64,000 nucleotides of DNA, taken from positions 19,893-83,892 of the forward strand of contig JAENYQ010000006.1 of the NCBI GenBank assembly GCA_016841675.1, given 5' to 3'. The translations under genes were made by a program, and so were the position numbers. Origin of the DNA: Desulfotomaculum sp. (GTDB lineage: Bacteria; Bacillota; Desulfotomaculia; Desulfotomaculales; Desulfallaceae). Below the pieces are notes generated by a model. The model was not told the origin of the DNA and searched no databases. It saw only the letters and a program-made list of their open reading frames with translations. Shown piece by piece: positions 3,410-20,711 of the stretch (positions within the stretch are counted from its first letter, which is position 1; each line of letters starts with the position of its first letter).

Positions 3410-6400
3410 CTACAACTCCAGAACGACATGATGGACTTGCCCGTCGTCGTGCAATTCAACGCAAGGTCCCTCCTGCACGTCTTGCTCCGAAAGCGCAACT
3501 TCCCGCCCATTAATTTGTAAAGCGGTCGCTCCGCCGGACTTGCGCGACGGATTTTTGACCGTAATAAGGTAGCGTGCGTCGCCAAAACGGTAGCTGACAG
3601 AAAACTCCGGCCATTCGCAAGGAATGCAAGGGCAAATGTACAACCGTTGGCCACGGCGGCGCAGGCCGAGAATCCACTCCACTCCTGCCTGGTACATCCA
3701 TCCCGCAGCGCCGGTGTACCACGTCCAGCCGGCGCGTCCCTGGTGCGGATCCGCCGTGTAAACGTCTGCCGCCATGACGTAAGGTTCACCGGCATATTGC
3801 CGCACTTCATTGGGCGTGCGGGTGTGATTGAGAGGATTTAACATCTGAAACAATTCCAAAGCCTTATCTCCATTGCCAAGCCGGCACCAGGCGATAATGC
3901 TCCAGATAACACCGTGCGTATACTGGGCTCCGTTCTCCCGAATGCCGGGCGGGTAGCCCTGAATGTAGCCGGGACTCGGATCCGTGCGGTCAAAAGGCGG
4001 CGTCAAAAGACGCGCCACGGATAGATCCCGGTCCACCAGCTCGCGGTCGAATGACTGCATAGCCTGTAGTGCCTTCTCTCGGGGCGCCGCGCCGGAGATA
4101 ACCGACCACGACTGGGCGATGGCATCAATCCGGCATTCCTCATTGTAAATAGAACCCAGCCATTGTCCGGCGTCGGTGAAGGCCCGCCTGTACCACTGCC
4201 CATCCCAGGCGTGCTCATCAAGGGATGAAGCCAACTTACCACGTACATCTCGGTAGCGTACCGCCCGCCGGGCATCGCCGCGCCGCCGGCAAAGTTCCGT
4301 GAACCGGTTCAGCACTGCACAGAGGAACCAACCCAGCCACACGCTCTCACCGCGGCCTTGGGCGCCGACACGGCTCATACCGTCGTTCCAGTCGCCGATA
4401 CCGATCAGCGGCAGATCGTGTTCGCCGAAGCGATGCAGGGCCCTGTCGATGGCACGCAAGCAATGCTCGTAAACGGCGCCGCTTTGGGTAGAAATCTGGG
4501 TCGGTTCGTATCTTTCATGTTCACCCTCCGGCAAAAGTTCACTATGCAGATACGGCTCCGTCTCGTCAAGTATACTGTCGTCTCCCGTATGCTCGACATA
4601 CCGTCCGACGGCATAGGGCAGCCACAACAAATCGTCGGAGAAACGCGTACGGATGCCGCGCTGCGTCTCTTCATGCCACCAATGCTGCACGTCGCCCTCC
4701 TCATATTGATGTGCGGCGTGCAGCAAAATTTGCGCCCGCGTGAGGTCGGGACGGGAGTGCAGGAGCGCCAATGAGTCCTGCAGTTGATCGCGAAAGCCGT
4801 ACGCGCCTCCCGCCTGGTAAAAGGCGGACCGTGCCCACATTCTGCAGCCCAGGGCCTGGTAAATCAGCCAGCCGTTCAGCAAGACATCCATCTCCGGGCA
4901 GGGCGTGGAAACCGAGACCTGGTCCAAAACACCAGCCCAGAATTCCCGTACCAGTTCAAAGGCCTGGTCGCAGACACTGTTTTGGCAGTATTTTTGCGCC
5001 AACTTAACGACGGCTTCCCGGGAATTTTCGCACCCGAGCAGGATGTAAACAGTCCGTTCGGCGCCAGGCTCCAGGGTGAGCTTAGCCTGCACCGCACCGC
5101 AAGCGTCATAAAGTGCTCCTGTTTGGCCTGACAGGCGTTCCCTGCCCATGGCGGCGGGATTTTCCAGTGTACCGTTGCGGCCAAGAAATTCGTTGCGGTC
5201 TGCCGTCCAGGACAGCTCGTCCGCCCCGGCGGGATTCCGCTTCGCTTCGCATTCCGCCGCAGCCGGTGGGTCGACAGGCGCTTCCGGTTGCGGCTGCACC
5301 CCTAAAAAGGCTGTGGCATCGCGAAATGCCTCCTGATATGCGTTGCGGGCCAGCATAATTTGGGCCGACTCATCCCACTCCGTGATGATGAAAGAGGCGT
5401 TCGCCTGGCGCTGTACACCCAGCACCCATTCTGCGTAATAGGTGACGGAGAGGCGCCGCCTCTCGGCACTCATGTTCTGCAGCCGCAATTTGACCACCTT
5501 GACCGGATCATCCAGCGGAACAAAAACCGTCATTCCCTGCCTGACACCGTGTCTCTCGTGGCGAAAACACGTAAACCCCCGGCCGTGGGTAACCGTGTAA
5601 GGTTGGCCTGCTTGTACGGTGGACGGCGTGGTAGACCATAGTTCGCCACTCTCTTCGTCCCGCAGGTAACACACTTCACCCGGCTGGTCGAGCACAGGAT
5701 CGTTGGACCATGGAGTCAGTTTAAACTCACGACTGTTGCGCCACCAGGTGTAACCCGTACCGAGCTCGGAAACAAGGCAGCCGAAGCGCGGATTGGCGAT
5801 GACATTGATCCATGGCGCCGGCAGATGATTGCTGTTTTTGATTATAATCTGATACTCCCGGCCATCCGGCGAAAATCCTCCCCAACCGTTGAAGAACATT
5901 AATTGGCGCATGTCGTCCGGCGGATGGGCAGCAAATCTGTTTAACGGCGCTGCCGGCGTGAGGGGTGCCGGGAAGACGGTATCCCACCGGGGTAGTTTGG
6001 TTTGCGCCTTGAGGCTGGGGCCGCCTGCCCGCAGCACAACGCGGGCTGTGGCCAGCAACAGTGTCCTGTCGTCGTCCGGCAGTTGATCGGCATTGATGAT
6101 AAAAACACCGCCGGGCCCTGTACCATGCCGATAAACGACTTGTTCCACCGCCCGCCGCAGTGCTTCCTGCAAATCCTGCTGGTATCCCCCCGCCGATTCG
6201 TTTAGAACGACCAGGTCGAATAGGAACCCCAGGCGGCGTAAGTACTCGTGCCCGGTCAGCAGCTTGACGACAAACTGCATATTGGCCCGGTTCTCGATCC
6301 GTACCAGGATCATCGGCACATCTCCGGAAACTCCGTAAGCCCAGAGGTCGGACTGCCCCTTTACATTGGCATTGATATTAAGCTTGCGCTCCTGCCGTAG

Positions 6401-9400
6401 TGGCGGAGTATACAACACCCGGCCCGCAAAAGCTTGGAAAGTCATGGCCTTGGCGGCAGTCAAGTGCAAATGTCGAAGTTCGATTTGACTGCGATTCCAG
6501 GCCAGTTGAAATGTTCGTTCCACTGCCAGATCCCCCGGGAAACGGCTAACAATGTCCATCGCCTCTTCCTTCGTGTCTGCCACAGCAGTAACAGCGTTAA
6601 GTTGCACCTGTTCACCGGGCTCAATGCTTAAACGCCTGCGCATGATCAAGGCGGGGTCTGCCACAGAGCCCACCGTGCCACGCAGGCGGGAACGGATTCC
6701 CTGCGGCTGGGAGAGCGGATGACCCCGGCCGATAAAGACGGCCCGATCAGTCTCGTATTCCACCGATCCCAGTGTTTGGCCTGGACTTATAAGCGAATGC
6801 GCCACCCATAACGGTGGCTCGTCTTCCTCGCGAGGTCTACGCCGGGCCAGCAGGCACTGGGCATCCTCCACATATGCCGTTTTAATGAACAATTTGCTAA
6901 AGGCCGGGTGCGCATCGTCGGCGCTGGGAGGCGCCAGGGCCAGTTCAAGAAACGTTGTGACTTCGATGATCCGCGCTTCATTCCCTGCGTTGGTGAGCGT
7001 CAACCGGCGGACTTCCGCATTCCATTCCGGAGACATACAGATTTCCAGGCTCGTCTGTACGTCTCCGTCCACGCGCATAAAGGCTGCCCGATCAAGGTAG
7101 AATTGCACCCGTTGTTCATGAGACGGGACACGGCACGGCTGAAACGCCGGCGACCATAGCATGTCGCGGGTAACGTCACGAATATACATGTAGCTCCCCC
7201 AATTGTCCAACACCGGATCCTCCCGCCAGCGCGAAATGGCCAGGCCTTTGTACCGGCTGAACCCGCTGCCGCTGTTGGTTACCATGGTCATCAATGTCCC
7301 GTTGGAAAGGACACACACTTCCGGTGCAGGTGTATCCGCGTTGAGGTATTCACGCAGGGCTTCGGCCACTGCCGGCCTGGTATTAGGCACATGCACCCGG
7401 GCCAGGGCGGGATGTTTAATGATTTTAGGCTGCGGGGGAATACGTTCCTGCAGCAGCAGTTCCGCTGCCTGCACGCGCTTATCACGGTGAAAACGTTCGT
7501 ATATTTTTTTCGGCGCCAGCAAGTTGGCCAGGGCGAGCAGGCTCATGCCCTGGTGATGGGCCATAAAACTGCGGATGACTATCCTGGTCTGATCCTTCGG
7601 CAGCCGCTGGGACGTGAAATCTATGGCTTCGTAGTAGCCGTATTTCCCCCGGGCGCCCAGATCATCAAATTTGCGCAAATCCGCCAGCCCTTGCCGCTTG
7701 GCAAAGGGTAAGGCCAGGATTGTCGCGTAGGGCGCCACAACCAAATCTTGTTCCAGGCCGCGCTTGAACCCGAGGCCGGGAACGCCAAAGGCCCGGTATT
7801 GATAGTTCATCTGATAATCAAAGGCGTAATAACCGGATTCGGAGATGCCGAAGGGGACTCCCCGTTGATGCGCGTACTGGATTTGCCGTTTGACCACCGC
7901 ACGGTAAGTGCTGTCCCAGACGGTGTTTCGGTAGGTACGCATAAAGAGCCAGGGCATTAAATATTCAAACATGGTCCCGGACCACGAAAGCAGCGTGACC
8001 CGCCGCCCTACCCTGGTCATTGTCCGCCCCAGCGCATGCCAGTGCGACACAGGCACATGACCCAGGGCGATGGCAATAAAGCTTGACTGCCTGGACTCTG
8101 ATGCCAGGAGGTCATACAGGATTTGATCCGGTTCACGCAGCCCGGCGTTGTAGCCCAGGGTGAACAATTTAGCCTTAGGGTCGTAAAGCGGGCGAAAGTC
8201 TGTCCCATTGATCAGCGCCTCCAGGCGAGCGATCAGATTTTGCCCGCGGGCCGGCCAATCATCCAGGACGCTTTGGGGCGATGTTCTGCTATGGGCTACA
8301 TTGTTATCTTTCAATGCAGGGGTTAACTCCCCGGCAAATAAAACATTAAAAGCTTCCGTTGCCTGACCGCGATCTTGATCAGAACCTGGCTGTTCGCCTT
8401 CGCTATCCGACTTGAGCCAGTCCTCAACTCCCTCTTTGACCGTCATCAAACTGCCGACGAAGTTACCGGAATCCACTGTTGATACGTACAGCGGAGGTAG
8501 TGGTTCGAGGGTGACCGTGTCGTACCAGTTGTAAAGATGGCCTTTCCATTTATCCAGGTGCTCCACCGTACTGATGGTGCGTTCCAAACGCTCAATTAAG
8601 CCGGGCGTATCGATGAACCCGAAATCCCGTGCCGCCAGCGCGCAGGCGAGATAAAGCCCGATGTTGGTGGGCGAAGTGCGGTGCGCTATCCCGTTGGGCG
8701 GCTCGATTTGCACATTGTCAGGTGGCAACCAATGATCTGTTTCAGTAACGTAGTCTTCGAAAAACGTCCAAATCTGTTTCGACAACTTGCGTAGTTCGGC
8801 CTCCTCAGCCGCTGCCAGCGGGCGCTCGGGCCGCTGCACGGGTCGGTCCAACCAGCGGACCGCCAGGGGAGCGACAGCCCATACAGCGGAAAGCGCCAAG
8901 CCTGTCCACTGCAGCGCCGGAACAGCGCTAGCCGCCGCTGCCAGCGCAAAGAGGAACACCAGCGTGTAACCTCCGTACATACCCAGCAGCGCAGGGTAGC
9001 GCCTGCCCCGACTACGGCGTTCAATTTCCGCGGCGCTGACCCATTCGAGCAAATGGCGTTTGGACACGAATAAGCGGTACAGGGTTCTGGCGATTGCATC
9101 CAGCAACACCACGCTTTGAAACGGCAGGGTCATAATGGTTAACAAAACTTTCCCGGCTGTAGCCAGCAAGCTCCGGGGACGCCAAACCGTCCGCCTGATG
9201 GCCACCAATTGGCGGATCAACGGCAAGAACAATGTAACGAACACCAAAGCAAGCCAGCGCCCGGGAGAGCCTGGTAAGACGGCCAGACCCAGCAGCAGTA
9301 CCGTAAAAAATGCCATCGGAAGCAAACTGCGGCGCAGATTGTCGATCATCTGCCAGCGGCTTAAAGGGGATAAATCTACCGGCAAAAGCGTTCCCCGCCG

Positions 9401-11812
9401 GTCGCGGACATGATGAAACAGCCAGGGGAGCAATTGCCAATCGCCACGCACCCAGCGGTGCATTCTCTTCTGATAAGCGCTGAACGTAGAGGGGTGCTCA
9501 TCGATTAATTCAATGTCCGACAGCAGGCCGGCGCGCAAAAATCCGCCTTCCAACAAGTCGTGACTAAGCACCCGGTTTTCTGGAATACGTTTACACAGCA
9601 CCTGGGCAAAGGCGTCAACATCGAAGATACCCTTCCCCGTAAAAATGCCCTGCCCCAACCCGTCCTGGTATGGATCGGAGGCGGCAAAGGCGTACGGATC
9701 GATTCCCGGCTCCGCCGTCCATATATAAGCAAAACGAGAGCGTAAGGCGGCCCCGTGGCTAATGCCGATACGCGGCTGCAGTACGCCGTATCCTTCGATG
9801 ACCCGTGTCCGCGTACGGTTTAACCGCGGCCGGTTGTAGGGCAGATGCAGGGTGCCGATCATCCGCTGCGCGCTTTCCAGCGGTAGCTGCGTATCCGCGT
9901 CAAGGGTGATGACGTAACGGATGCGCGGGAGGATAGACTTGTCCCCGACTACGAAGGTGTAAGTCGTATCAGCCCGCCCTTGAAGCAGTTCGACAAATTC
10001 AACCAATGCGCCCCGCTTGCGTTCCCAACCCATCCATACCCCCTCGGACGGGTTCCACAATCTGCGGCGCTGAAAGAGGTGAAATGTACTACCGCCCGGG
10101 CGGGAGTACTTGCAGTTTAACTCCTCAATGCTTGCGCGCGCGGCTGCAAGGACGGCAGCATCATCAATTGGGGATGATGTGTGTCCCCTTTCCTTTGATA
10201 ATGTCTCCGCGTCTGCGTCAACAAGATCACCCAGGAGAGCGAAGTGGATATTCGTGTCGCGGTTGGCCAGGTAATGCAGTTCCAGCCGCTCCGCCAATTC
10301 CTGCACCTCTTTGACCGTGGACCAGATTACGGGAATGACGACCATAGTGGTCGCTTCATGAGGAATCCCGCAGGAAAAATCGTATCTCAACAGCGGCCGT
10401 GGCCGCCTGGCGCACTCGATCAGCCAGTGTGCCGCCGTGACGGCCCACTCGCTGGCTGGGAACGACAGCGCCAGCAGTATCATCGTCCACTGGGCAGTGG
10501 TAAAACCGGTGCCCCTGGCGACCCACGCCGCAAATCCCGACAGGACGACTAAGAACAATCCTATGAGGAGGGTAAAATACGCGCCGGTGGCACGACGTAA
10601 AACTCCTATTTCCGGTAAATACCGGGGGGTGCTGCATATTTTCAGCGTGCGCTGCAGTTCTTTAACGCCGTCCGGTTCCAGCAGGTAATAGGCGACAAAT
10701 GTCGGGCGCGGCAGTTCCTCAATTGGGGAGGAGGTGTGTCCCCTTTCCTTTGAATTTGCCGGGCCGCCGGCGGCCTCATCATCCTGTGCCCGCTCCGCGC
10801 ACGCCTGTTTGTATTCCTGTGCCGCAAGTTGGACGGCCTGCTGTGCCACCAGATTTTCCGGCACCCGTAAGCGGCGGGCCAATTGCTCAACGTGCTTTCG
10901 CAACACTTCACGGCTTGAGAAATCAAGCAGTGGATAGACACCTGCGCTTTCTTCACGCAGAGTGTGTTCAACCATGCAAATCTGCTCGAACCGATCGCGC
11001 CAGTGCAGGCGCGAAATTTTGCGCAGGCTTCCGATGAGGTTGCCTGTGGTTACTTGATAGGCGGCCTGAAGCTGATATTCATAGGAGACGATTCGATCAA
11101 GGCTTTCCGGGCCGTTTTCCAGTTTGCATATCAGCCATTCTCGTACGGTTGCCGAATCGTCCGCCCACTCGCGCAGGTGCCTGATCAAGTGAGCGATCAG
11201 CGGGCCGGAGAGCGGTATTTCCTGGCCCGCTTCTTCAAGGGCAGTCTGAAGAACATCAGGACTTAACTGCGACGACTCAATGCGCGCCAGCAGCCGTTCG
11301 ACCAGCATACACACCTCTCGTCGTTCGCGGACCAGCTTCATGACTTCGGCCAGGCGCCGGATCAAGGCGATGCGCAGGATAAGCGGGGTCGCCCACGCCT
11401 CCGCAATGGTAAGTACCGCTACTTCCTGGTAAGAATTGATGTATGAAACGAGCGATTCTTCGTCCATGTTTCCATCCACATGTTCGAGATAATCAGCACA
11501 TATAGACAGTACCCTTGCCTGGCCGGTTTTGCGCAGGTGCGGCAAATCCCGCAAGAAGTTTTTGGAAAGCTGGTGCCGGACGACCAACACCTGTTCTTCG
11601 ATGAACTCGGCATGATCGAGCAGCCATTCTTCCGCGGGCTGCGAACAGCTTGCGCTGATGTCCTGCAGGGAGCGTATAAACGAGCGTAAATTCTCAACGT
11701 CTGTATAAAACTCCCGCCACAGGTGCTTTGATGGTCTGCTTCTCACGTAAGGGTCGTGTGTTAAGGCAAGTTCATGGGCTTTTTGCCGGAGTTGTTCAGT
11801 ATTTAAAATCAT
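3410..11812 (-). CDS. Giant cyclic beta-1,2-glucan synthase-like protein (NdvB/Cgs family: GT84 + GH94-like)
   Basis: 2800 aa; multiple TM segments; VITLDADTQLP glycosyltransferase motif, HRWVRGDWQLLPWLF, and C-terminal glucoamylase/phosphorylase-like region (IGIGDWNDGMSRVG, GGAYGFRDQLQDSLAL). Confidence 0.88.
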   Translation of the reverse strand: MILNTEQLRQKAHELALTHDPYVRSRPSKHLWREFYTDVENLRSFIRSLQDISASCSQPAEEWLLDHAEFIEEQVLVVRHQLSKNFLRDLPHLRKTGQARVLSICADYLEHVDGNMDEESLVSYINSYQEVAVLTIAEAWATPLILRIALIRRLAEVMKLVRERREVCMLVERLLARIESSQLSPDVLQTALEEAGQEIPLSGPLIAHLIRHLREWADDSATVREWLICKLENGPESLDRIVSYEYQLQAAYQVTTGNLIGSLRKISRLHWRDRFEQICMVEHTLREESAGVYPLLDFSSREVLRKHVEQLARRLRVPENLVAQQAVQLAAQEYKQACAERAQDDEAAGGPANSKERGHTSSPIEELPRPTFVAYYLLEPDGVKELQRTLKICSTPRYLPEIGVLRRATGAYFTLLIGLFLVVLSGFAAWVARGTGFTTAQWTMILLALSFPASEWAVTAAHWLIECARRPRPLLRYDFSCGIPHEATTMVVIPVIWSTVKEVQELAERLELHYLANRDTNIHFALLGDLVDADAETLSKERGHTSSPIDDAAVLAAARASIEELNCKYSRPGGSTFHLFQRRRLWNPSEGVWMGWERKRGALVEFVELLQGRADTTYTFVVGDKSILPRIRYVITLDADTQLPLESAQRMIGTLHLPYNRPRLNRTRTRVIEGYGVLQPRIGISHGAALRSRFAYIWTAEPGIDPYAFAASDPYQDGLGQGIFTGKGIFDVDAFAQVLCKRIPENRVLSHDLLEGGFLRAGLLSDIELIDEHPSTFSAYQKRMHRWVRGDWQLLPWLFHHVRDRRGTLLPVDLSPLSRWQMIDNLRRSLLPMAFFTVLLLGLAVLPGSPGRWLALVFVTLFLPLIRQLVAIRRTVWRPRSLLATAGKVLLTIMTLPFQSVVLLDAIARTLYRLFVSKRHLLEWVSAAEIERRSRGRRYPALLGMYGGYTLVFLFALAAAASAVPALQWTGLALSAVWAVAPLAVRWLDRPVQRPERPLAAAEEAELRKLSKQIWTFFEDYVTETDHWLPPDNVQIEPPNGIAHRTSPTNIGLYLACALAARDFGFIDTPGLIERLERTISTVEHLDKWKGHLYNWYDTVTLEPLPPLYVSTVDSGNFVGSLMTVKEGVEDWLKSDSEGEQPGSDQDRGQATEAFNVLFAGELTPALKDNNVAHSRTSPQSVLDDWPARGQNLIARLEALINGTDFRPLYDPKAKLFTLGYNAGLREPDQILYDLLASESRQSSFIAIALGHVPVSHWHALGRTMTRVGRRVTLLSWSGTMFEYLMPWLFMRTYRNTVWDSTYRAVVKRQIQYAHQRGVPFGISESGYYAFDYQMNYQYRAFGVPGLGFKRGLEQDLVVAPYATILALPFAKRQGLADLRKFDDLGARGKYGYYEAIDFTSQRLPKDQTRIVIRSFMAHHQGMSLLALANLLAPKKIYERFHRDKRVQAAELLLQERIPPQPKIIKHPALARVHVPNTRPAVAEALREYLNADTPAPEVCVLSNGTLMTMVTNSGSGFSRYKGLAISRWREDPVLDNWGSYMYIRDVTRDMLWSPAFQPCRVPSHEQRVQFYLDRAAFMRVDGDVQTSLEICMSPEWNAEVRRLTLTNAGNEARIIEVTTFLELALAPPSADDAHPAFSKLFIKTAYVEDAQCLLARRRPREEDEPPLWVAHSLISPGQTLGSVEYETDRAVFIGRGHPLSQPQGIRSRLRGTVGSVADPALIMRRRLSIEPGEQVQLNAVTAVADTKEEAMDIVSRFPGDLAVERTFQLAWNRSQIELRHLHLTAAKAMTFQAFAGRVLYTPPLRQERKLNINANVKGQSDLWAYGVSGDVPMILVRIENRANMQFVVKLLTGHEYLRRLGFLFDLVVLNESAGGYQQDLQEALRRAVEQVVYRHGTGPGGVFIINADQLPDDDRTLLLATARVVLRAGGPSLKAQTKLPRWDTVFPAPLTPAAPLNRFAAHPPDDMRQLMFFNGWGGFSPDGREYQIIIKNSNHLPAPWINVIANPRFGCLVSELGTGYTWWRNSREFKLTPWSNDPVLDQPGEVCYLRDEESGELWSTTPSTVQAGQPYTVTHGRGFTCFRHERHGVRQGMTVFVPLDDPVKVVKLRLQNMSAERRRLSVTYYAEWVLGVQRQANASFIITEWDESAQIMLARNAYQEAFRDATAFLGVQPQPEAPVDPPAAAECEAKRNPAGADELSWTADRNEFLGRNGTLENPAAMGRERLSGQTGALYDACGAVQAKLTLEPGAERTVYILLGCENSREAVVKLAQKYCQNSVCDQAFELVREFWAGVLDQVSVSTPCPEMDVLLNGWLIYQALGCRMWARSAFYQAGGAYGFRDQLQDSLALLHSRPDLTRAQILLHAAHQYEEGDVQHWWHEETQRGIRTRFSDDLLWLPYAVGRYVEHTGDDSILDETEPYLHSELLPEGEHERYEPTQISTQSGAVYEHCLRAIDRALHRFGEHDLPLIGIGDWNDGMSRVGAQGRGESVWLGWFLCAVLNRFTELCRRRGDARRAVRYRDVRGKLASSLDEHAWDGQWYRRAFTDAGQWLGSIYNEECRIDAIAQSWSVISGAAPREKALQAMQSFDRELVDRDLSVARLLTPPFDRTDPSPGYIQGYPPGIRENGAQYTHGVIWSIIAWCRLGNGDKALELFQMLNPLNHTRTPNEVRQYAGEPYVMAADVYTADPHQGRAGWTWYTGAAGWMYQAGVEWILGLRRRGQRLYICPCIPCEWPEFSVSYRFGDARYLITVKNPSRKSGGATALQINGREVALSEQDVQEGPCVELHDDGQVHHVVLEL
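10164..10198. repeat. 35-bp palindromic repeat copy A inside the cgs-like ORF
   Basis: tcaattggggatgatgtgtgtcccctttcctttga; encodes SKERGHTSSPI on the minus strand. Confidence 0.8.
10719..10753. repeat. 35-bp palindromic repeat copy B inside the cgs-like ORF
   Basis: tcaattggggaggaggtgtgtcccctttcctttga; 33/35 identical to copy A; encodes SKERGHTSSPI. Confidence 0.8.
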
Positions 11813-12027: not shown

Positions 12028-15000
12028 TTACTTACTGATATACCCCTTGATAAAGGTGGCCACCAATCCAAAGGCAGCCAGCAGAGCCATAAAGGAAACG
12101 GCTTTAGTGCCGGCGCTGCTTGATTGATGCGCTGACTCTTCTTTAAGTTCATATGCTTTAACATTTTTTTGCCCCTGTTCCGGCTTTTCGGTTTCCTGCG
12201 GCGCAGATTGTTGAGTTTCTGTACGTATATTAAGCTGGGTATTGTGCTGAGCCGGTTTGTCTCCCACCGGAGTCGCGGACTGTGCCAATTGTCGGGTTTG
12301 AGTTGGCGCTGCCCCGGCCCCGGATGGCAGCTTACTTTGCGGTGCCGGCTGGATCGGTTCCACCTGCTCCGCCGGTTCAGGCGAAGCGTTGCGGGAAGGC
12401 GAACTGGATAACGGCGACGCATCGTGATCTTGATCCTGGTTTTGCTTGGGGGCTATATTCAGTTGTTGGTCAGTTGATGTATAAAAAACTTCCTTAAACT
12501 TATCCATTGTATCACTGTCTACAGTAGCATAACTGGCCAGCCACTCGTTAAATACAATGTTGCTGCAGGTATGGTGGCAGCAAACCACTCCATATTGGGC
12601 AGCCGTTTGCATGTAAGTATCGGCCAATTTGGTCAACGTTTCCTGATCGGCCTGCCACATCTGCCGCCGCGCCGCTTCCAGGTTCCAACCGATGATAGAT
12701 TGCAGCACAAAAGGATCCAGCTGGCTCATGATCTTGTCGTCAAAGACAAAGGTTTCGGCTACCTGCCGCCAGGCCCAGTCATCGATGCCCTCCAGGGTGG
12801 CATCCACCAGGAACATGTTCGCTACGTGGTTACCGATCTCCCGGGATCCGGCATAACCTTCCTTGAGCATTCCCTCGATCCATTTGGGGTTTAACAGCCG
12901 GCTGCGTAATTCCGTGCCGACAAACTCACTAAAAGTCTGCACCCGGGGACTGCCGGTGCGCGTGTTGACCATATAAGTCTGCACCTTATTACCGGAAGCC
13001 GCTTCCGCCGCCAGTTTCAGCCCGCCCAGGTACTGGGCCACGTCATCGTTGTCCAGCGCGCCCCAGAGGGAATCCCGGACCTGGGTAACCAGGTCCACGC
13101 TCTTTAGGATTTCCCGGAAGGTATCCTGAGCCGGCACACCGTAAGCGGTCTTACCGTAGATGTAGGACATCCGGCTCATGTAGGTGTCCACAAGATCCTG
13201 GCTGTCTTCCCAGGCGCTGGTGGCCTGGCCCAGCTCTGAAACGCCCGTGCCGTAGGTTCCCGGAGCGTCACCAAAGATCCTGGCTTGCGCCAGATCGTCT
13301 GCCTCTTGCTCTGACAGGCCCTGCTCCCGGAGCTTGTCCCGCAAGGTTAGATAGGTCTTGCGCACCAGGTTGCTTTCCGGGTTCTCTTCCAGTAAAGCAA
13401 CTTGCCTGAAAGCGTCGTCCAGCACGCCAACCGTATGGGAAAAGGTATCCCGAAACAGACCGGAGATGGTTACCAGCACGTTAATCCGCGGTCGCCCCAG
13501 TTCCTCCAGGGGAGTAACCTGCACCGTGCTCACCCGGCCGCTCTTATCCCAAACCGGCTCGGCACCAATTAAACGGAGGATCAGAGCCACGGATTCTCCC
13601 TGGGTGCGCATGGTCTCAATGGCCCAGAGGACCACGCCCACCGTTTCCGGATAACGCCCTTGCTCCGCATAGAATTTTTCCAAAAGCTGATCGGCCGCCT
13701 CTTTACCCGTCTTCCAGGCCGCCTCGTCGGGCACCATGCGCGGGTCAAAGGAAACCATGTTTCTGCCCGTGGGCAATGCGTCGGGTACCCGCACCGGGTC
13801 CCGCCCCAACCCGGGCTCGATAAATGCACCGGAAAGTGCCCGCAGCAGATTGGTTATTTCGTTAGTAGTCAAAAGCAGGCACTCTCTAATTTCATCCCGG
13901 CTTTCTTCTCTGGCTACCGCATCGTAATTTACGATGGATTCAACCATCAGATCCAGCATTTCTCCTTGGGGCGGCAAGCCGAAGGTATGCAAGCCGTAAG
14001 GCATGAGCTCCGTGGCCAGCTCTTCCAGGTATTCATGGAGCAGGGAGGCCACCTGAGCAAAATCGGCCGTTTCAAGATCAAGGCTCAGATCCCGGTCAAG
14101 GCTGTTCGCCTTAACCTTTTCAATAATCTGTTCCTGCAGGTTGGACGCTCTGGCAGTATTGCCCACGCTTACTGCGTTCTCGTAGTCCACTACTAGTTGC
14201 TGCAGTTCGGCCAGTGCGCCGTAGAGCCCGGGCTGGATCATGGGCGGCGTGAGGTGGTCGATGGTCACCGCATACCCCCGCCGCTTGGCCTGGGTTCCTT
14301 CGCCGGGATTGTTCATGATGTAGGGGTAGATATCCGGCAGATTGCCCATTAATACATCCGGCCAGTCATCTTCCCCCAGCCCCACGCTCCGTCCGGGCAA
14401 CCATTCCAGCGTACCGTGGGTGCCCAGGTGGATCACCGCGTCAGCCTGGAATTCCTTCTGCAGCCAGAAATAAAAAGCTATATACTGGTGTGGTGGAGGC
14501 AAAGCAGGTGAATGGGCGATTTTTGAGGGATCATCCCCCCAACCCCGCATAGGCTGCGGGCCCAGGAAAATGTTGCCCAGTGTGGCCCCGGGAATAACCA
14601 GGTTGCCCTCATAAACCATGATGTTGCCCGGAGGCGGACCCCATTCCTTTTCCACCTGCGCCCGCAGCTCCCCGGACAAGGTGGCGTACCACTCCAGGTA
14701 TTTCTCTACCGGCAAGAGTAGGGCCCCCGCCTGCACCAGTGCGTCCAATTCACCCGGTGCCCAGCTACCGACATTCCTTCCTTGTCGGTGAATGAGTTCT
14801 TCTATTACCCGGGAGCTGAGGTCACCTTCCACCCGGTAGTCATTATCGCGTAATGCCTGTAAAATAACCGCTGCGCTGGCAATGCTGTTTAAGTAGGAAG
14901 CGCCAATATCATCTTTGCCCCCGTGGTGGTTATAATAAACAAGAGCTATTTTTTTGTCCGTATTGTCCTTTTGCTGCAGGTTGACCCAGGCCAGTGCCCG

Positions 15001-16221
15001 GCCTACCAGGCGTTCAATGCGGTCGGGAAGGGGTACTTTTTTCACTATGGTAGCTCCCGTACTTTCGTCTACCTTGACTACCGTGCTGCCACCCATGAAC
15101 ACCGGTTCAATACGCCCGTCCAGCTCAGGATAGGCAATCTGCCAGGCCACTTCGCTGCTGATACCGGCCGGGTTGCTCTGCCATTCTTCCAAATCGCTGC
15201 TGTAAACCGGTGCCATAACCGGTACATTTAACTGTTTAAATAACTCGATACCCTCTTCCGGCTGGCCGTAGATAAAGTTAAACCCCACCGCCGCAATAAG
15301 AAAGTCTACCTGCCTTTTGCCACCGGGCATGAAAAAGTCCTGGAACGCCGCTTTACGGTTGCTGCTATCGCTGAAAACCAGGAGCGCGTTGGCCCCTTTG
15401 GCTTCCAGTTCCCTTTGGACGGCCAGAAACATATCGATATCGTTATTCTTAAAGAAGCTATCATAGGTAGTTATACCGACCGATGGAGCCCCCTCTTTGA
15501 AGTGCCCGCTGACTTTATACCAGGCCAGATAACCGCCTAAAGTATCGAAAGTACCCGGCGGAAGTCCCATACCGTCTTCTACGTTAAGGGTTAATCCTTC
15601 AGCATCCGGGTGATAGATAAACCGGCCGGGCATATTGATCGGGTCTAACTGTTCCTCGGTTGCGACCTGCCCGTATGTGGAGGCCAGATGCAATACCAGC
15701 TGCCGCATGTTTTCCACGCCGCCGAACTTAAAATAATTAGTTAGTAAGCTATCTTGACTATCATCAATTTGTGGATATTCCTGAAAAGAACCGCTCCGGG
15801 TGGAAAGTACCTTGCCTTCCCATCCCTCAGGCAGGTCTTGCAGCAACGGCCCTATCGTTTGAATACCGGTGGAACCAATCATCTCCAGCAAAAACACATC
15901 GGCATCCTGTAAAGATTGCTTTAACTGCTGAACCTTTTCTTCATTTGCCAAGTCATTGGAATTAAATAATTTCAGATCAATTGGGTAATCCCCCAACTTG
16001 TCATAAGCATCCACCAGGGGCATTAAAAAACCCTCACTGCCCAAAAGCATGACCACCCTGGTGCGGGCATTTTCATCCGCTGCAACCACCGGTACCTTAA
16101 TTAGTGGAACAACAACAAGGGCCAAAAATATCACAAAGGTAAAGATTATATTTCTACGTAATTTATATGTCCTTGAGAACATTAAGTCTTTGCCACCTCC
16201 GTTATTCTTTGCCATCTTCAA
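12028..16221 (-). CDS. CobN-like (cobaltochelatase large-subunit family) protein with N-terminal signal peptide and C-terminal TM anchor
   Basis: 1397 aa; CobN/BchH-type motifs (VIHLGTHGTLEWLPGRSVGL, RPRINVLVTISGLFRDTF, YGTGVSELG); N-term hydrophobic segment then VVAADENA; C-term Pro/Gln-rich linker and AVSFMALLAAFGLVATFIKGYISK. Confidence 0.88.
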   Translation of the reverse strand: MKMAKNNGGGKDLMFSRTYKLRRNIIFTFVIFLALVVVPLIKVPVVAADENARTRVVMLLGSEGFLMPLVDAYDKLGDYPIDLKLFNSNDLANEEKVQQLKQSLQDADVFLLEMIGSTGIQTIGPLLQDLPEGWEGKVLSTRSGSFQEYPQIDDSQDSLLTNYFKFGGVENMRQLVLHLASTYGQVATEEQLDPINMPGRFIYHPDAEGLTLNVEDGMGLPPGTFDTLGGYLAWYKVSGHFKEGAPSVGITTYDSFFKNNDIDMFLAVQRELEAKGANALLVFSDSSNRKAAFQDFFMPGGKRQVDFLIAAVGFNFIYGQPEEGIELFKQLNVPVMAPVYSSDLEEWQSNPAGISSEVAWQIAYPELDGRIEPVFMGGSTVVKVDESTGATIVKKVPLPDRIERLVGRALAWVNLQQKDNTDKKIALVYYNHHGGKDDIGASYLNSIASAAVILQALRDNDYRVEGDLSSRVIEELIHRQGRNVGSWAPGELDALVQAGALLLPVEKYLEWYATLSGELRAQVEKEWGPPPGNIMVYEGNLVIPGATLGNIFLGPQPMRGWGDDPSKIAHSPALPPPHQYIAFYFWLQKEFQADAVIHLGTHGTLEWLPGRSVGLGEDDWPDVLMGNLPDIYPYIMNNPGEGTQAKRRGYAVTIDHLTPPMIQPGLYGALAELQQLVVDYENAVSVGNTARASNLQEQIIEKVKANSLDRDLSLDLETADFAQVASLLHEYLEELATELMPYGLHTFGLPPQGEMLDLMVESIVNYDAVAREESRDEIRECLLLTTNEITNLLRALSGAFIEPGLGRDPVRVPDALPTGRNMVSFDPRMVPDEAAWKTGKEAADQLLEKFYAEQGRYPETVGVVLWAIETMRTQGESVALILRLIGAEPVWDKSGRVSTVQVTPLEELGRPRINVLVTISGLFRDTFSHTVGVLDDAFRQVALLEENPESNLVRKTYLTLRDKLREQGLSEQEADDLAQARIFGDAPGTYGTGVSELGQATSAWEDSQDLVDTYMSRMSYIYGKTAYGVPAQDTFREILKSVDLVTQVRDSLWGALDNDDVAQYLGGLKLAAEAASGNKVQTYMVNTRTGSPRVQTFSEFVGTELRSRLLNPKWIEGMLKEGYAGSREIGNHVANMFLVDATLEGIDDWAWRQVAETFVFDDKIMSQLDPFVLQSIIGWNLEAARRQMWQADQETLTKLADTYMQTAAQYGVVCCHHTCSNIVFNEWLASYATVDSDTMDKFKEVFYTSTDQQLNIAPKQNQDQDHDASPLSSSPSRNASPEPAEQVEPIQPAPQSKLPSGAGAAPTQTRQLAQSATPVGDKPAQHNTQLNIRTETQQSAPQETEKPEQGQKNVKAYELKEESAHQSSSAGTKAVSFMALLAAFGLVATFIKGYISK

Positions 16222-16558
16222 TCATAATCAACTTTCCGGTTTTCGGATCCCGGTACACCGTGCCCATCTCCCGGTACCCGGAACCCCCACCTTGTTGTAT
16301 TTGGGGCACCTCCTCCAGTTCCTGGCCCCGCTCCACATTAATTACTTTTTGCATGCTTTGCATCAGGCGCTGTTTTTCCTCGGGTTTAACTTTGGCAAAG
16401 ATAATGTTTTGCAGGTTCCAGGAAAGCACCAGGGCTACCATCAATCCACAGCAAAAAACCAGCATCACATCAACCAGGTTGCCCAACCCGCCCAGGGGAT
16501 CAACTTCTTCTTCGGACAACCGCCCCCGCCTCATTCTCCTGGACAGCACGTGTTTCAC
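16202..16558 (-). CDS. TolR/ExbD-like small membrane protein (DUF2149-like)
   Basis: 118 aa, single N-terminal TM (LVDVMLVFCCGLMVALVLS), overlaps the CobN-like gene start and the ExbB-like gene end. Confidence 0.7.
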   Translation of the reverse strand: MKHVLSRRMRRGRLSEEEVDPLGGLGNLVDVMLVFCCGLMVALVLSWNLQNIIFAKVKPEEKQRLMQSMQKVINVERGQELEEVPQIQQGGGSGYREMGTVYRDPKTGKLIMIEDGKE

Positions 16559-17189
16559 CTCCCACCACCAACTCCAAGAGCAGTTCCATGTTACCCAGAT
16601 CCTGCTCGTACCAACGCCGCCGCACCTTGGAGATCAAGGCAGCCACGGCTCCGGCCGCAATGCCCGCCACCGTGGTATCAAAAGCGATAATTACCGCCTC
16701 GGACAGTCCTCGCACATCGCCCTGACCAAGGGCGGCCAGGCCCGGGCCCAGGGGAATAAGAGTACCCATAAGTCCCAACACCGGCCCCAGTTTGGCCAGC
16801 AGATCTGTTTTCCCCAGCACCTTCTTGGCCCGGAATTCTTCCCGATCAAGGATATCCCGGGCAATCAGTTTTCTGACTTCAATAGAAAGGTGAGCTCTGG
16901 CTAAAAGGTCGGTAAGTGGTTTCTTCTGACGGGGTAACAACGAACTGCTATCAATAACCTTCTGCAGGTTTTTCATCTGCCAGGGTGCAATGTTTCCCAC
17001 ATCGTGAAAGACTTCCATCATGTTTACCGGTTTGTTAGCTTTCCTCCTTTTGGCCTCTGCCACAAAGGTGCCTAACTCCGTAAAAGCAATTACCAAAAAA
17101 AATAGCAGACCTAAAACAACGGGGATTAACAAGCTCTGTGCAGCGGCATGTAAAATTTTTGTCAAATATTCTGAACCGGGAATGTTCAC
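16500..17189 (-). CDS. MotA/TolQ/ExbB proton-channel family protein
   Basis: 229 aa; LLAKLGPVLGLMGTLIPLGPGLAALGQGDVRGLSEAVIIAFDTTVAGIAAGAVAALIS is characteristic of TolQ/ExbB. Confidence 0.88.
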   Translation of the reverse strand: MNIPGSEYLTKILHAAAQSLLIPVVLGLLFFLVIAFTELGTFVAEAKRRKANKPVNMMEVFHDVGNIAPWQMKNLQKVIDSSSLLPRQKKPLTDLLARAHLSIEVRKLIARDILDREEFRAKKVLGKTDLLAKLGPVLGLMGTLIPLGPGLAALGQGDVRGLSEAVIIAFDTTVAGIAAGAVAALISKVRRRWYEQDLGNMELLLELVVGGETRAVQENEAGAVVRRRS

Positions 17190-17929
17190 TGGTTATCACA
17201 ATCCTTTACATAACTAATTTGGTACATGATATACCCCCAAAACCCCAGGCCAACCATCCCAACCAGCACCAAAGCCACCAAGCGAGGTGAGCTTATGGAC
17301 AGAGGGGTTAAGGGCATGGCCATAGACTGCACAAAATTGGGGATAATCAGGGCGAAGGTGAGGGTTAGTATGCCGATAAATAATAACAAGTTATTAAAGA
17401 TGGCTGCTGGATTAAATCTAATTAAATGAACAATTCTCCTGATCGCTACGGCAATAACCAGCACCAGGGTTGAAAAGAAAAGGGCTATAGTCCGGCCAAG
17501 TTCTGATAAGGATATGCCCACCATGGAACTGATCAAAATTACTGAAAAGGACAGGGCAGCCAAACATAGTGGGCAGGGTAAAAAGCCAAGGATGAATTTC
17601 CATTGACCAGGTCTGAATCCGGGTTTTACAGCTCTTTCAACCGGTTGCCCGGATGAAGAACATCCCTGCTCCGGTTCTTGCTGTAGGCCAAGGTAAATCA
17701 GCAGTATGGCCATTAGTAAAGAACCAACAAAGGTATAGCGATCCAGAAACGTAACCAGCATTTGCTGGTGAGCGCCAAAAGTCAGTACCAAACAGTACAG
17801 GCTAATGCCGAAAATGCCGGAAACCAGTACCAGCCATCGCCGGTTCAGCCAGGATGTCCCTAAAATCAGCCCCGTTTTAACACCTAAAATTATGGTGGCA
17901 ACCAGTAAACCGCCCTGAAACCATAACAT
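17186..17929 (-). CDS. Polytopic membrane transporter (DUF2162-like)
   Basis: 247 aa, six or so TM segments, FLPCPLCLAALSFSVIL; translationally coupled to the ExbB-like gene. Confidence 0.65.
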   Translation of the reverse strand: MLWFQGGLLVATIILGVKTGLILGTSWLNRRWLVLVSGIFGISLYCLVLTFGAHQQMLVTFLDRYTFVGSLLMAILLIYLGLQQEPEQGCSSSGQPVERAVKPGFRPGQWKFILGFLPCPLCLAALSFSVILISSMVGISLSELGRTIALFFSTLVLVIAVAIRRIVHLIRFNPAAIFNNLLLFIGILTLTFALIIPNFVQSMAMPLTPLSISSPRLVALVLVGMVGLGFWGYIMYQISYVKDCDNQ

Positions 17930-18018: not shown

Positions 18019-18052
18019 TAAAAAATCCTCCGTCTTAATAAGACAGAGGACT
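18019..18052 (-). terminator. Intrinsic terminator of first cobalamin leader
   Basis: Minus strand TCCTCTGTCTTATTAAGACGGAGGATTTTTT. Confidence 0.75.
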
Positions 18053-18124
18053 GATATCAGAGAAACATAACGCTTCTCCATACATAAGAAATCACCCCCC
18101 CTATCCGCGTAGGCAGTACGATAC

Positions 18125-18340
18125 TCCGGGACAGGCAGGTCTCCTGGCTTAGGTTCATCAGTGTTGCCACGTCTTCCCATCCGGCACTCAATGACTCAAA
18201 AATAGCAAAACATTAAGTGCGGACAGTGACATTGTGTGGCATACTTCCCCTTTACAGTGGCGGGACCGCGCCGGATTCACACCGGCTTCCCTTTTAAGTT
18301 TGCACCCTTCTGGTGTAAACACCTGTCCGTTTAAAAATTC
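18125..18340 (-). promoter_or_regulatory. Cobalamin riboswitch 1 (proximal)
   Basis: Minus strand contains B12 box AGCCAGGAGACCTGCC (near 18131-18152), GGGAAGCCGGTGTGAATCCGGCGCGGTCCCGCCACTGT core. Confidence 0.92.
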
Positions 18341-18473
18341 ATTTGTTGTTACGCTTGTCAACCAAATATATTATTTAACCTTTCTACCTTATTTTTACCC
18401 TTCAAGTAATCTAATAGGAGCACAACACGTATTTTAATATTAACACGTATTTTAATATTAATAATAAATAATA

Positions 18474-18505
18474 AAACCTTAGCTCCCATGGGCTAAGGTT
18501 AACAA
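18474..18505 (-). terminator. Intrinsic terminator of second cobalamin leader
   Basis: Minus strand AACCTTAGCCCATGGGAGCTAAGGTTTTATTATT. Confidence 0.65.
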
Positions 18506-18579
18506 GCCAGTAAGTTACCTTTACCTGTTAAGTTAAGGCAACCACACTAACCCTCTCCGCGGGAGGTTATCGTGTTTTA

Positions 18580-18750
18580 TCAGGTAAGGTCTCCTGACTC
18601 GTGGCTCATAGCGAACCTCCCGCCTTCCCAGGCTATTTAGAAAAACCCAGTGGCACTTTGGGAGCTGCTCCCCACTTACAGTGGCCGGACCGCCCGGGAT
18701 TTACACCCGGTTCCCTTTTCACCCCCGGCGTAACCGGAGGAACCTGAAGA
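18580..18750 (-). promoter_or_regulatory. Cobalamin riboswitch 2 (distal, tandem)
   Basis: Minus strand GGGAACCGGGTGTAAATCCCGGGCGGTCCGGCCACTGTAAGTGGGG and B12 box AGTCAGGAGACCTTACC. Confidence 0.92.
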
Positions 18751-19161
18751 ACAAGTTATTTAATTTATGGATATTTTAACACTTTTTAAAAAATATGTCC
18801 ACTATTCGAGGCCGGCCTATAATACTCCCATAGGGTGGGACACAAAATTCAAAATGTAAGTTATACTAGAAACATGAAAAAACGAATGCGATGAAATTGA
18901 GGATATTCGTTATGCCGAGGCTGTTCTTCTAATCATGGGCTTTTCGCCTCAACACTGAACAAGCAATTTATTTTGTCTAAAGAGCAAATTCAACAGTTCT
19001 TAGATACGTTTTTTGAACAGTTACCTGCCTTTCTGAAATGTTCGCTTCAAAAAAAGGCGGCTGCTTGATATTAATTGTTTTCAATCGCTTACGTACAAAA
19101 GGCTTGAGCTTATTTTACAGGTGCTAAAGCTGAGTATTTATTTAAATAAGGGGACTGGGTA

Positions 19162-20711
19162 TTGGAGGTTTCTATGATTAATGAAAAAGTGTATTTGTTA
19201 TCTAAAGTTCGATTTTTTGCCGACCTTACTGCCCATGAATTAAGCGAACTAGCGAATGAATTTAAGTGGCAAGAGTATAAACAAGGAACTGATATCATAA
19301 AACGAGGCCAAACGGAACACCATTATTATGTTTTAATTAAGGGACAAGCTGAAGCATTAGTTTCTAAACAGGGAATTAATGCTTGGAAAGTAAATCTCTT
19401 CGGCCCATATGATACCTTCGGTGAAATCTCTCTGTTCACAAAAAAACCTGCACCAACGACGGTTCGTTGCTTAGAAGATTGCCGCGTTTTAGTATTAAAT
19501 GCCGATAATTTTACTCAAATGCTGATAAGGTGGCCTAAACTTTATCAAAAATTTATTGAACAGCTATACAATAGTTTAACTGATGTTAATCATGAAATAT
19601 GGAATGCTAAATATAGAGATTTTTTAAGTTTAACTTTGCAGCTAACCCATTATAAGGATAGATTTTACGAAACTTGGGGAGGTGTCCGAACAACTAGGGA
19701 AATTGAAAATAAAATTGCCGAGTTGGTTAAAACAAAGGAAAACTTGCTTCTATTTGGTGAACGAGGCACAGGACGGCAAATGCTGGCCTGGTATTTACAT
19801 AAACGCAGGTTTGGAGAATCGGCCACCTTTGTAGTTATTGATGGGCGTTATTTTGATCAGCAGTGGAGCGAAATGATGTTTAAATCTGGAGAAGAAGGTA
19901 CTTCAGCATTTAATTTTTTTGAAATAATCCATAATGGTACACTATTGTTCCGGGAAATAAATGAAATATCCCCCAAGACTCAATTAAAATTAGCTGAATG
20001 CCTAAAAATGAAAAAACTGAACTGCCTTGTGATAGCTAGCTTACAAGGGAACGTGGATCAATTGTCCCCTAAAATAATACCGGAATTAATGGAGTGCCTT
20101 AACCAAACTTATACAATAACACCGTTACGCGAACGGAAAAGGGATATCCCAATCATAGCCCAGGGTATCTTAGAAAAACTAGCCCTTAAGCATCATAGGA
20201 CGACCCCTGTTCTCAGCAAAGAAGCGGTTAAGTTACTTCTTTCTCATAATTATCGACAGGGAAATGTGACTGAGTTAATTCAAGTGCTGGAAAGGGCATT
20301 TTTTCTGGCTGAAGATAATTCAATTGGGCTGGAGCACATTTTTTTTGGTCCTACAGCTCAAAAAATCGGAAGCACGGTTAATCTTCTTTCGTGGCCAAGT
20401 ATTGAAAACATATTAAAAAGAGGAGTGCTTATTTCTTGGCTTAGGCGTATTACCGCAGCTATTTTTATATCAATAATTTTATTATTACTGCTGACTCCCA
20501 AAACAGCTATGGCTAACTTAATTGTTACTTTAGTTTGGTGTTTAGGCTGGCCTGTTTGGGGTTAGGCCTTAAAACCCCTGTAGGGATAAATCAAGTCTTT
20601 TATGTTTCTGCTTTCGCAGTAGGAGCAACAATCGCCATTTCAATTGGTTTGCTTTTGACGATTTTTGCATTTATTATGGTGATCATTCGGAAAAAACTAG
20701 CAAAAAAATAA
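19162..20711 (+). CDS. cNMP-binding domain + AAA+ (sigma54-activator-like, no GAFTGA) + C-terminal membrane region; apparent frameshift near 20560
   Basis: ORF 19162-20565 has CRP-like beta barrel and degraded NtrC-like AAA+; in another frame the sequence continues LGLKTPVGINQVFYVSAFAVGATIAISIGLLLTIFAFIMVIIRKKLAKK*. Confidence 0.65.

Follow-up and report, generated by a model that had tools for sequence, protein, structure and literature searches.

On the minus strand of a 64,000-nucleotide stretch of Desulfotomaculum sp. DNA (contig JAENYQ010000006.1; the window), tandem cobalamin riboswitches with hairpins are followed by genes for a DUF2162 predicted permease, an ExbB-type motor subunit, a DUF2149 protein and a CobN-like protein. 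On balance, the set is best read as an extracytoplasmic machine for cobalt or corrinoid salvage, driven by the proton-motive (or sodium-motive) force, that works like the Hmu system but is not an HmuS. The architecture itself is not new. The novelty lies in the comparative evidence; the monoderm and archaeal sets, the motor swap and the motif pairs are not described in the Hmu and BtuS papers cited below. Open reading frames were called mechanically, topology was taken from hydropathy and genome collections were sampled; gene order, export signal and anchor, riboswitches, lack of an outer membrane, fold and motif co-occurrence were computed directly. The four overlapping genes and two riboswitches listed in a preliminary description of the window were all located by Pfam and Rfam family matches (Table 1).

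Gene organization and predicted export of the CobN-like protein

The arrangement is not a matter of chance, because blocks of these four genes are found repeatedly across Bacillota, Actinomycetota and methanogenic archaea. The GTG start of ExbB overlaps the stop of DUF2162, and the GTGA overlaps together with a 59-base overlap between ExbB and DUF2149 suggest translational coupling. Among ExbB homologs the GTLIPLGP and AFDTT motifs are invariant. DUF2149 has one transmembrane (TM) helix, carrying the Asp of DVMLV, and a short outer domain that ends in GTVYRDPKTGKLIMI. This Asp occupies the position of the ExbD/TolR aspartate and is kept in nearly all DUF2149 homologs, with one Glu.

The CobN-like gene had been described as a 1397-residue frame with a signal peptide and a C-terminal anchor. 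The export and anchor features hold, but the start does not: TTG 16221 falls within the DUF2149 gene, and ATG 16182, behind GGAGG, is the likelier one (1384 residues). Read from this ATG, the sequence opens with a classical signal peptide (MFSRTYKLRRN...VPVVAA/DE). Hydropathy gives a single N-terminal segment and a single C-terminal TM helix (residues 1370-1388, numbered on the 1397-residue frame), a predicted topology unlike that of cytoplasmic CobN, as had been proposed. According to family searches, the whole genome encodes one CobN and one DUF2149. In a genome-wide search for Cob-chelat-sub the best hit reached 44.5 bits (cut-off 779), so that no ChlI/ChlD-like cobaltochelatase partner comes near the cut-off, which bears out the reported absence of CobS/CobT-type partners.

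Table 1. Features of the riboswitch-controlled cassette; positions refer to the window
Feature	Position	Strand	Support
Cobalamin riboswitch 1 (upstream one)	18566..18761	-	RF00174, 122.5 bits, E 2.9e-30
Terminator-like hairpin after riboswitch 1	18475..18500	-	-13.2 kcal/mol, folding z -3.1
Cobalamin riboswitch 2	18117..18341	-	RF00174, 120.5 bits, E 1.1e-29
Terminator-like hairpin after riboswitch 2	18024..18052	-	-16.4 kcal/mol, folding z -6.1
DUF2162 predicted permease, 247 aa, 7 predicted TM helices	17186..17929	-	PF09930, E 8e-53
CPLC (CPxC) motif, start of DUF2162 TM4	17564..17575	-	invariant in CobN cassettes
ExbB/TolQ/MotA-type motor subunit, 229 aa, 3 predicted TM helices	16500..17189	-	MotA_ExbB PF01618, 7.5e-9
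DUF2149, ExbD/TolR-like subunit	16202..16558	-	PF09919, 2e-22
CobN-like extracytoplasmic class-I chelatase, 1384 aa from ATG 16182	12028..16182	-	CobN-Mg_chel PF02514, 1139 bits
CobN-like signal peptide	16078..16182	-	hydropathy; VPVVAA/DE read from sequence
His602 in HLGTHG, counterpart of HmuS catalytic His538	14416..14418	-	alignment
CCHHTC motif, CobN-like residues 1214-1219	12565..12582	-	3 Cys invariant in 23-sequence alignment
AYEL juxtamembrane box, CobN-like residues 1356-1359	12145..12156	-	sequence
C-terminal TM anchor, CobN-like residues 1370-1388, then IKGYISK	12058..12114	-	hydropathy

Distribution and probable exchange of the motor

Of 299 genomes sampled from the window's phylum, 24 contain DUF2149, as do 7 of 298 genomes of another phylum, reached through an Actinomycetota record, and 138 of the 153 genomes of the phylum of a Methanobacteriaceae record. 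A control search for DUF2149 was positive in Methanosarcina acetivorans. Full cassettes are found in Bacillota and Actinomycetota and, with a different gene order, in Methanobacteriaceae. The closest relatives are from Desulfotruncus and Desulfofundulus, which makes the source a Peptococcaceae-like anaerobe. Omp85 was found in none of the 18 cassette genomes, of which 15 are bacterial and 3 archaeal, whereas seven diderm controls were positive in that search; the motor therefore cannot serve TonB. It probably acts on the CobN-like protein.

The 28 non-cassette CobNs from 25 loci of the same phylum have neither a C-terminal anchor nor ExbB, DUF2149 or DUF2162 nearby. At least 14 of these loci contain a ChlD-like AAA/vWA gene and several more a ChlI-sized AAA gene; since the AAA-gene pattern also matches ABC ATPases, only loci with the ChlD-like gene were counted. 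The cassette CobNs have a signal, an anchor and an ExbB motor instead of AAA+-type genes. In an unrooted 61-protein tree, one branch splits the cytoplasmic CobNs from the anchored ones (Shimodaira-Hasegawa-like approximate likelihood ratio test, SH-aLRT, 99), and the Bacteroidota HmuS set forms a branch of its own (SH-aLRT 100). This topology fits a joint change of location and power source, and because the tree comes from a quick search without an outgroup, on sequences of varying composition, a single switch is favoured rather than proven.

One bacterium carries two different anchored CobN-like proteins, of the CCHHTC and CSENSC types, in tandem behind a single motor (L044:1-4930 and 5181-9377; L numbers denote loci retrieved for comparison).

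A juxtamembrane box shared by presumed loads of the motor

The C-terminus of all intact cassette CobNs comprises a variable linker, an (A/S)YE(L/I/V)-like box and a TM helix whose inner end often bears GY. The same C-terminal plan is found in unrelated secreted neighbours of the motor, namely half-CobN, FmdE-domain, Oxidored_molyb/Big_2 and beta-helix-like archaeal proteins. The pattern [YFHIM]E[LIVM] lies within 45 residues before the helix in 58 of 67 loads of the motor, CobN included, mostly 10-22 residues away, compared with a mean of 3.5 and a maximum of 9 in within-segment shuffles. This pattern had been relaxed from [YF]E[LIVM] after misses were seen. On later, held-out loci the strict form matched 8 of 9 loads (mean of 0.17 and maximum of 2 in shuffles). 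This set is small, L224 nearly duplicates a protein of the earlier set, and L216 and L217 are almost identical to each other. Owing to relatedness, the box counts are less independent than they appear. An initial control, bitopic proteins away from the motor, comprised just four proteins, and the shuffles and the held-out set were used instead. The corresponding stretch of HmuS differs, with a conserved VVLKK-like sequence.

The motor has several other neighbours. ExbB-DUF2149 pairs stand beside secreted proteins in L056-L059, L061, L063 and L066-L068, a second use of the same motor; the protein scanned, that of L058, contains Oxidored_molyb, Fn3_assoc and Big_2 domains, and the others look related, some being near molybdenum cofactor (Moco) riboswitches. 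In L060, L062 and L065 the pair accompanies a secreted C-terminal CobN half of 462-470 residues, in L060 with dipeptide/nickel-type ABC genes as well. Secreted FmdE-domain proteins of about 1000 residues, with an AYE box and a C-terminal TM helix, adjoin ExbB-DUF2149 in L221:2899-5943 and L208:8921-12109; in L221 a CbiM gene lies between the two.

Cysteine motifs of CobN and DUF2162

The cassette CobNs carry GVxCCHHTCxN or GVxCCDCSCGN just past the body of the protein, and the cassette DUF2162s have CPxC at the opening of TM4. In a first set, CPxC was present in 44 of the 46 DUF2162s adjoining CobN, the remaining two being next to truncated CobNs without CCxxxC. Of 26 DUF2162s with no CobN neighbour, five had the motif; in four of these cases the contig stops short of where CobN would lie, and in the other (L143) a piece of CobN is left at the edge of the contig. 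A later set gave 8 of 8 beside CobN versus 4 of 11 without it; these four comprise two cut contigs, one short contig (L211) and one real exception (L212). Such co-occurrence suggests a metal or thiol relay between the CCxxxC of CobN and the CPxC of DUF2162.

DUF2162 was also modelled with AlphaFold2, with a predicted local distance difference test score (pLDDT) of 81. The best TM-score for this model, 0.40-0.43, was to CcdA and was not significant. HmuT and DUF2162 align collinearly in hhalign with a probability of 61.5, a match biased by TM segments, and HmuT lacks CPxC.

Cobalamin control and cobalt metabolism of the hosts

A cobalamin riboswitch lies upstream on the same strand in all 17 distinct complete bacterial cassettes with a CPxC DUF2162, at no more than 510 nt in 16 of them. 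In the remaining one, L051, it is located 6.2 kb upstream, ahead of a co-oriented ribonucleotide reductase gene and Peripla_BP_2/ABC set. No cobalamin riboswitch was found at motors without a full CobN, nor at two second-type cassettes (L088, L090). CbiM or CbiJ adjoins the cassette in L045, L143 and L152, and CbiM was also found in archaeal cassettes without CobN. Other cobalamin riboswitch loci of the Desulfotomaculum genome include CbiJ-CbiQ-CbiO, CbiM and a ThiC-family pair. CbiD is present in 15 of the 18 cassette genomes and CbiK/CbiX in most, so that B12 synthesis and cobalt insertion are possible in most hosts without this CobN.

Small FmdE-like genes are often found near the B12 cassette (L044, L045, L049, L089), accompanied in L045 and L049 by dipeptide/nickel-type ABC genes.

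Relation to known systems

The earlier reading of the cassette as an envelope system powered by the proton-motive force stands as regards the extracytoplasmic site, the ExbB/ExbD-type motor and the B12/cobalt context, all of which the comparative evidence supports, but the accompanying claim that no biochemical description exists does not: the same architecture is found in the Bacteroidota Hmu and BtuS systems, and HmuS, a CobN homolog with a cryo-electron microscopy structure (PDB 9d26), is a demonstrated heme de-chelatase (PMC12583661). The hmu operon encodes HmuS (CobN-like), HmuT, HmuU (ExbB) and HmuV (PMC12583661), and versions of Hmu-like operons with cobalamin riboswitches are known in Bacteroides/Bacteroidota (PMC10100974). 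The fetched Bacteroidota loci confirm this plan, with CobN, an HmuT-like gene, ExbB and DUF2149. One of them (L178:1626-13438), led by a cobalamin riboswitch, encodes a TonB receptor and a CobN-HmuT-ExbB-DUF2149 series together with a cobalt chelatase of the CbiK type whose N-terminus resembles a signal.

The window system shares with HmuSTUV a CobN-like protein with N- and C-terminal membrane segments, an adjoining small membrane protein, ExbB and DUF2149, but it differs in having no TonB receptor or HmuY, no outer membrane, control by cobalamin riboswitches and DUF2162 in the place of HmuT, to which it may be weakly related. BtuS, a third, B12-regulated CobN type proposed by Rodionov 2003 (as cited in PMC6460266), is likewise CobN-like, membrane-anchored and under cobalamin riboswitch control; it was described in Bacteroidota with TonB receptors, where its B12 role is putative. 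The CobN-ExbB-ExbD-TonB cluster of Geobacter lovleyi (PMC3403914) also places CobN beside a motor in the absence of CobS/CobT, but in a diderm with TonB, and there the motor was assigned to outer-membrane transport. Cytoplasmic CobN/ChlH, which work with CobST or ChlID, have the same fold and HxGTHG motif, whereas the window protein is exported and anchored and has an ion-gradient motor but no AAA+ partner. As in TonB-ExbB-ExbD and TolQRA, an ExbB homolog is paired with a subunit, here DUF2149, whose single TM helix bears an acidic residue as in ExbD/TolR; here, however, there is no outer membrane and the load protein itself bears the C-terminal TM adaptor.

Fold and active site

An AlphaFold2 model of CobN-like residues 35-1234 (pLDDT 84.7) matches HmuS 9d26 with a TM-score of 0.83 and CobN 7c6o with 0.79. 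The catalytic His538 of HmuS, within HFG(T/A)HG, is retained in the alignment as His602 in HLGTHG. In the window protein the position of HmuS His1209 (LSLDHxxEFMGG) is taken by an Asp, within ALDNDDVAQYLGG, and the other monoderm and archaeal cassette proteins, apart from the most divergent, likewise have Asp there. The heme ligand His254 is absent, with Gly or Phe at this position in the window protein and its relatives; the heme ligand Met79 is unaligned, a Met lying one residue off. Nothing like the 120-residue Met-rich insertion of HmuS was found between window-protein residues ~760 and 782, and the CCxxxC/CPxC pair is a further difference from HmuS. With Asp at 1209, no His254 and Met79 off by one residue, the protein therefore falls outside the definition of HmuS.

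The His-to-Asp change at 1209 was considered as a discriminator between heme and B12 systems and rejected, since the B12-riboswitch protein of L178 keeps His and the residue thus follows phylogeny. The L178 CobN lacks Met79 and His254, which fits the heme/B12 split better than position 1209.

Proposed mechanism and alternatives

The salvage machine would be made when adenosylcobalamin is scarce. The CobN-like protein would then stand outside the membrane, held by its C-terminal helix, and the ion-driven ExbB-DUF2149 motor may act on it directly through the juxtamembrane YE[LIV] box and the TM helix and so perform the mechanical work for which the cytoplasmic relatives rely on the ATP motors ChlI/ChlD or CobS/CobT. 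Most likely, opening of the chelatase would free the cobalt of a corrinoid or similar complex outside the cell, or allow the corrinoid to be captured, close to the membrane. From there the metal could travel by way of CCxxxC in CobN and then CPxC in DUF2162 to the cell interior. Cobalt release is favoured over insertion on two grounds, namely that the closest relative studied so far is one that removes metal and that there are signs of a metal path to DUF2162.

Several points weigh against this scheme. Removal of cobalt from a corrin is chemically hard, and no enzyme is known to do so. Since most cassette hosts can produce B12 and take up cobalt through CbiM, salvage is not essential. The DUF2162 model gave nothing below E 0.28 in a fold search against the PDB, that is, no significant match. 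The Asp at the position of His1209 and the missing heme ligands imply that the chemistry of HmuS is not simply transferable. Finally, purified HmuS turns over with NADH in the absence of a motor (PMC12583661), and the motor may thus do something else.

A broader proposal is more tentative and, taken as a whole, rather doubtful: ExbB-DUF2149 could be a general ion-driven motor of cells without an outer membrane, present in many archaea and in some Bacillota and Actinomycetota, that acts directly on extracytoplasmic loads such as CobN, half-CobN, FmdE-domain and Oxidored_molyb-domain proteins sharing a C-terminal YE[LIV]-box/TM adaptor, and that, having replaced the AAA+ motor once in the CobN branch, would power the removal of cobalt from external corrinoids.

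The strongest rival to cobalt or corrinoid salvage by a chelatase is an importer of intact corrinoids, in which the CobN-like protein would be an outer-face receptor and an ExbB-powered DUF2162 would move the corrinoid inward with no metal removed. B12 riboswitch control, the BtuFCD-like set directly upstream in L051 and the resemblance of the head and neck domains of the fold to binding proteins (PMC12583661) agree with it. DUF2162 is, however, small, with 7 TM helices, many hosts make their own B12, and the retention of the catalytic His602 and of central-cleft residues goes beyond the needs of a receptor, which makes this importer unlikely, if still a serious contender. Capture of free cobalt (or nickel), with the divalent metal bound by CCxxxC of CobN and driven by the motor through the CPxC-bearing DUF2162 and no tetrapyrrole involved, would account for the CbiM genes beside cassettes and for the co-occurrence of the two cysteine motifs; it is improbable, given that a 1400-residue chelatase whose cleft is intact is an expensive means of binding metal and that the same genome already has energy-coupling factor transport by CbiMNQO. 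Still less credible is a de-chelatase for heme or another porphyrin, like HmuS and merely under B12 control: its fold and operon plan are those of Hmu, but neither the window protein nor its relatives have His254 or the second axial His1209, Met79 is unaligned, and the B12-riboswitch operon L178 of Bacteroidota likewise lacks Met79 and His254. Extracytoplasmic insertion of cobalt into incoming metal-free corrinoids, the forward CobN reaction, has the family chemistry and the predicted secreted CbiK-type chelatase of the B12 operon L178 in its favour but is the least probable of all, as most hosts have a cytoplasmic CbiK/CbiX route and metal-free corrinoids are rare outside cells.

Other features of the window

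A divergent gene at 19162-20565 encodes a protein with a cyclic-nucleotide-binding domain, a sigma54-activator AAA domain and hydrophobic segments at its end; no DNA-binding domain was matched in it. Just downstream of the operon, 3410-11812 encodes a 2800-residue protein with glycoside hydrolase 94 domains, similar to cyclic beta-glucan synthases, with an apparent repeated ERGHTSSP stretch. The region 26515-63831, some 37 kb long, is a molybdenum/tungsten regulon of unusual density, with eight Moco/W riboswitches (RF01055) placed around MoeA-like, ModABC-like, aldehyde-oxidoreductase-like and formate-dehydrogenase-like genes and around two FecCD-type ABC sets with Peripla_BP_2 binding proteins.

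Implications

In published Hmu models, HmuU and HmuV are assigned to TonB and the outer membrane. That an HmuU/HmuV-like pair adjoins a CobN-like protein even where cells lack an outer membrane points to direct drive of the chelatase. If the proposed mechanism is true, class-I chelatases would be of two kinds, differing in power source and in the side of the membrane on which they work. It would also provide a function for DUF2149, for DUF2162 and for the methanogen 'CobN' genes, which have been listed as unexplained (PMC12583661), and the enzymatic recovery of cobalt from corrinoids would be new chemistry.

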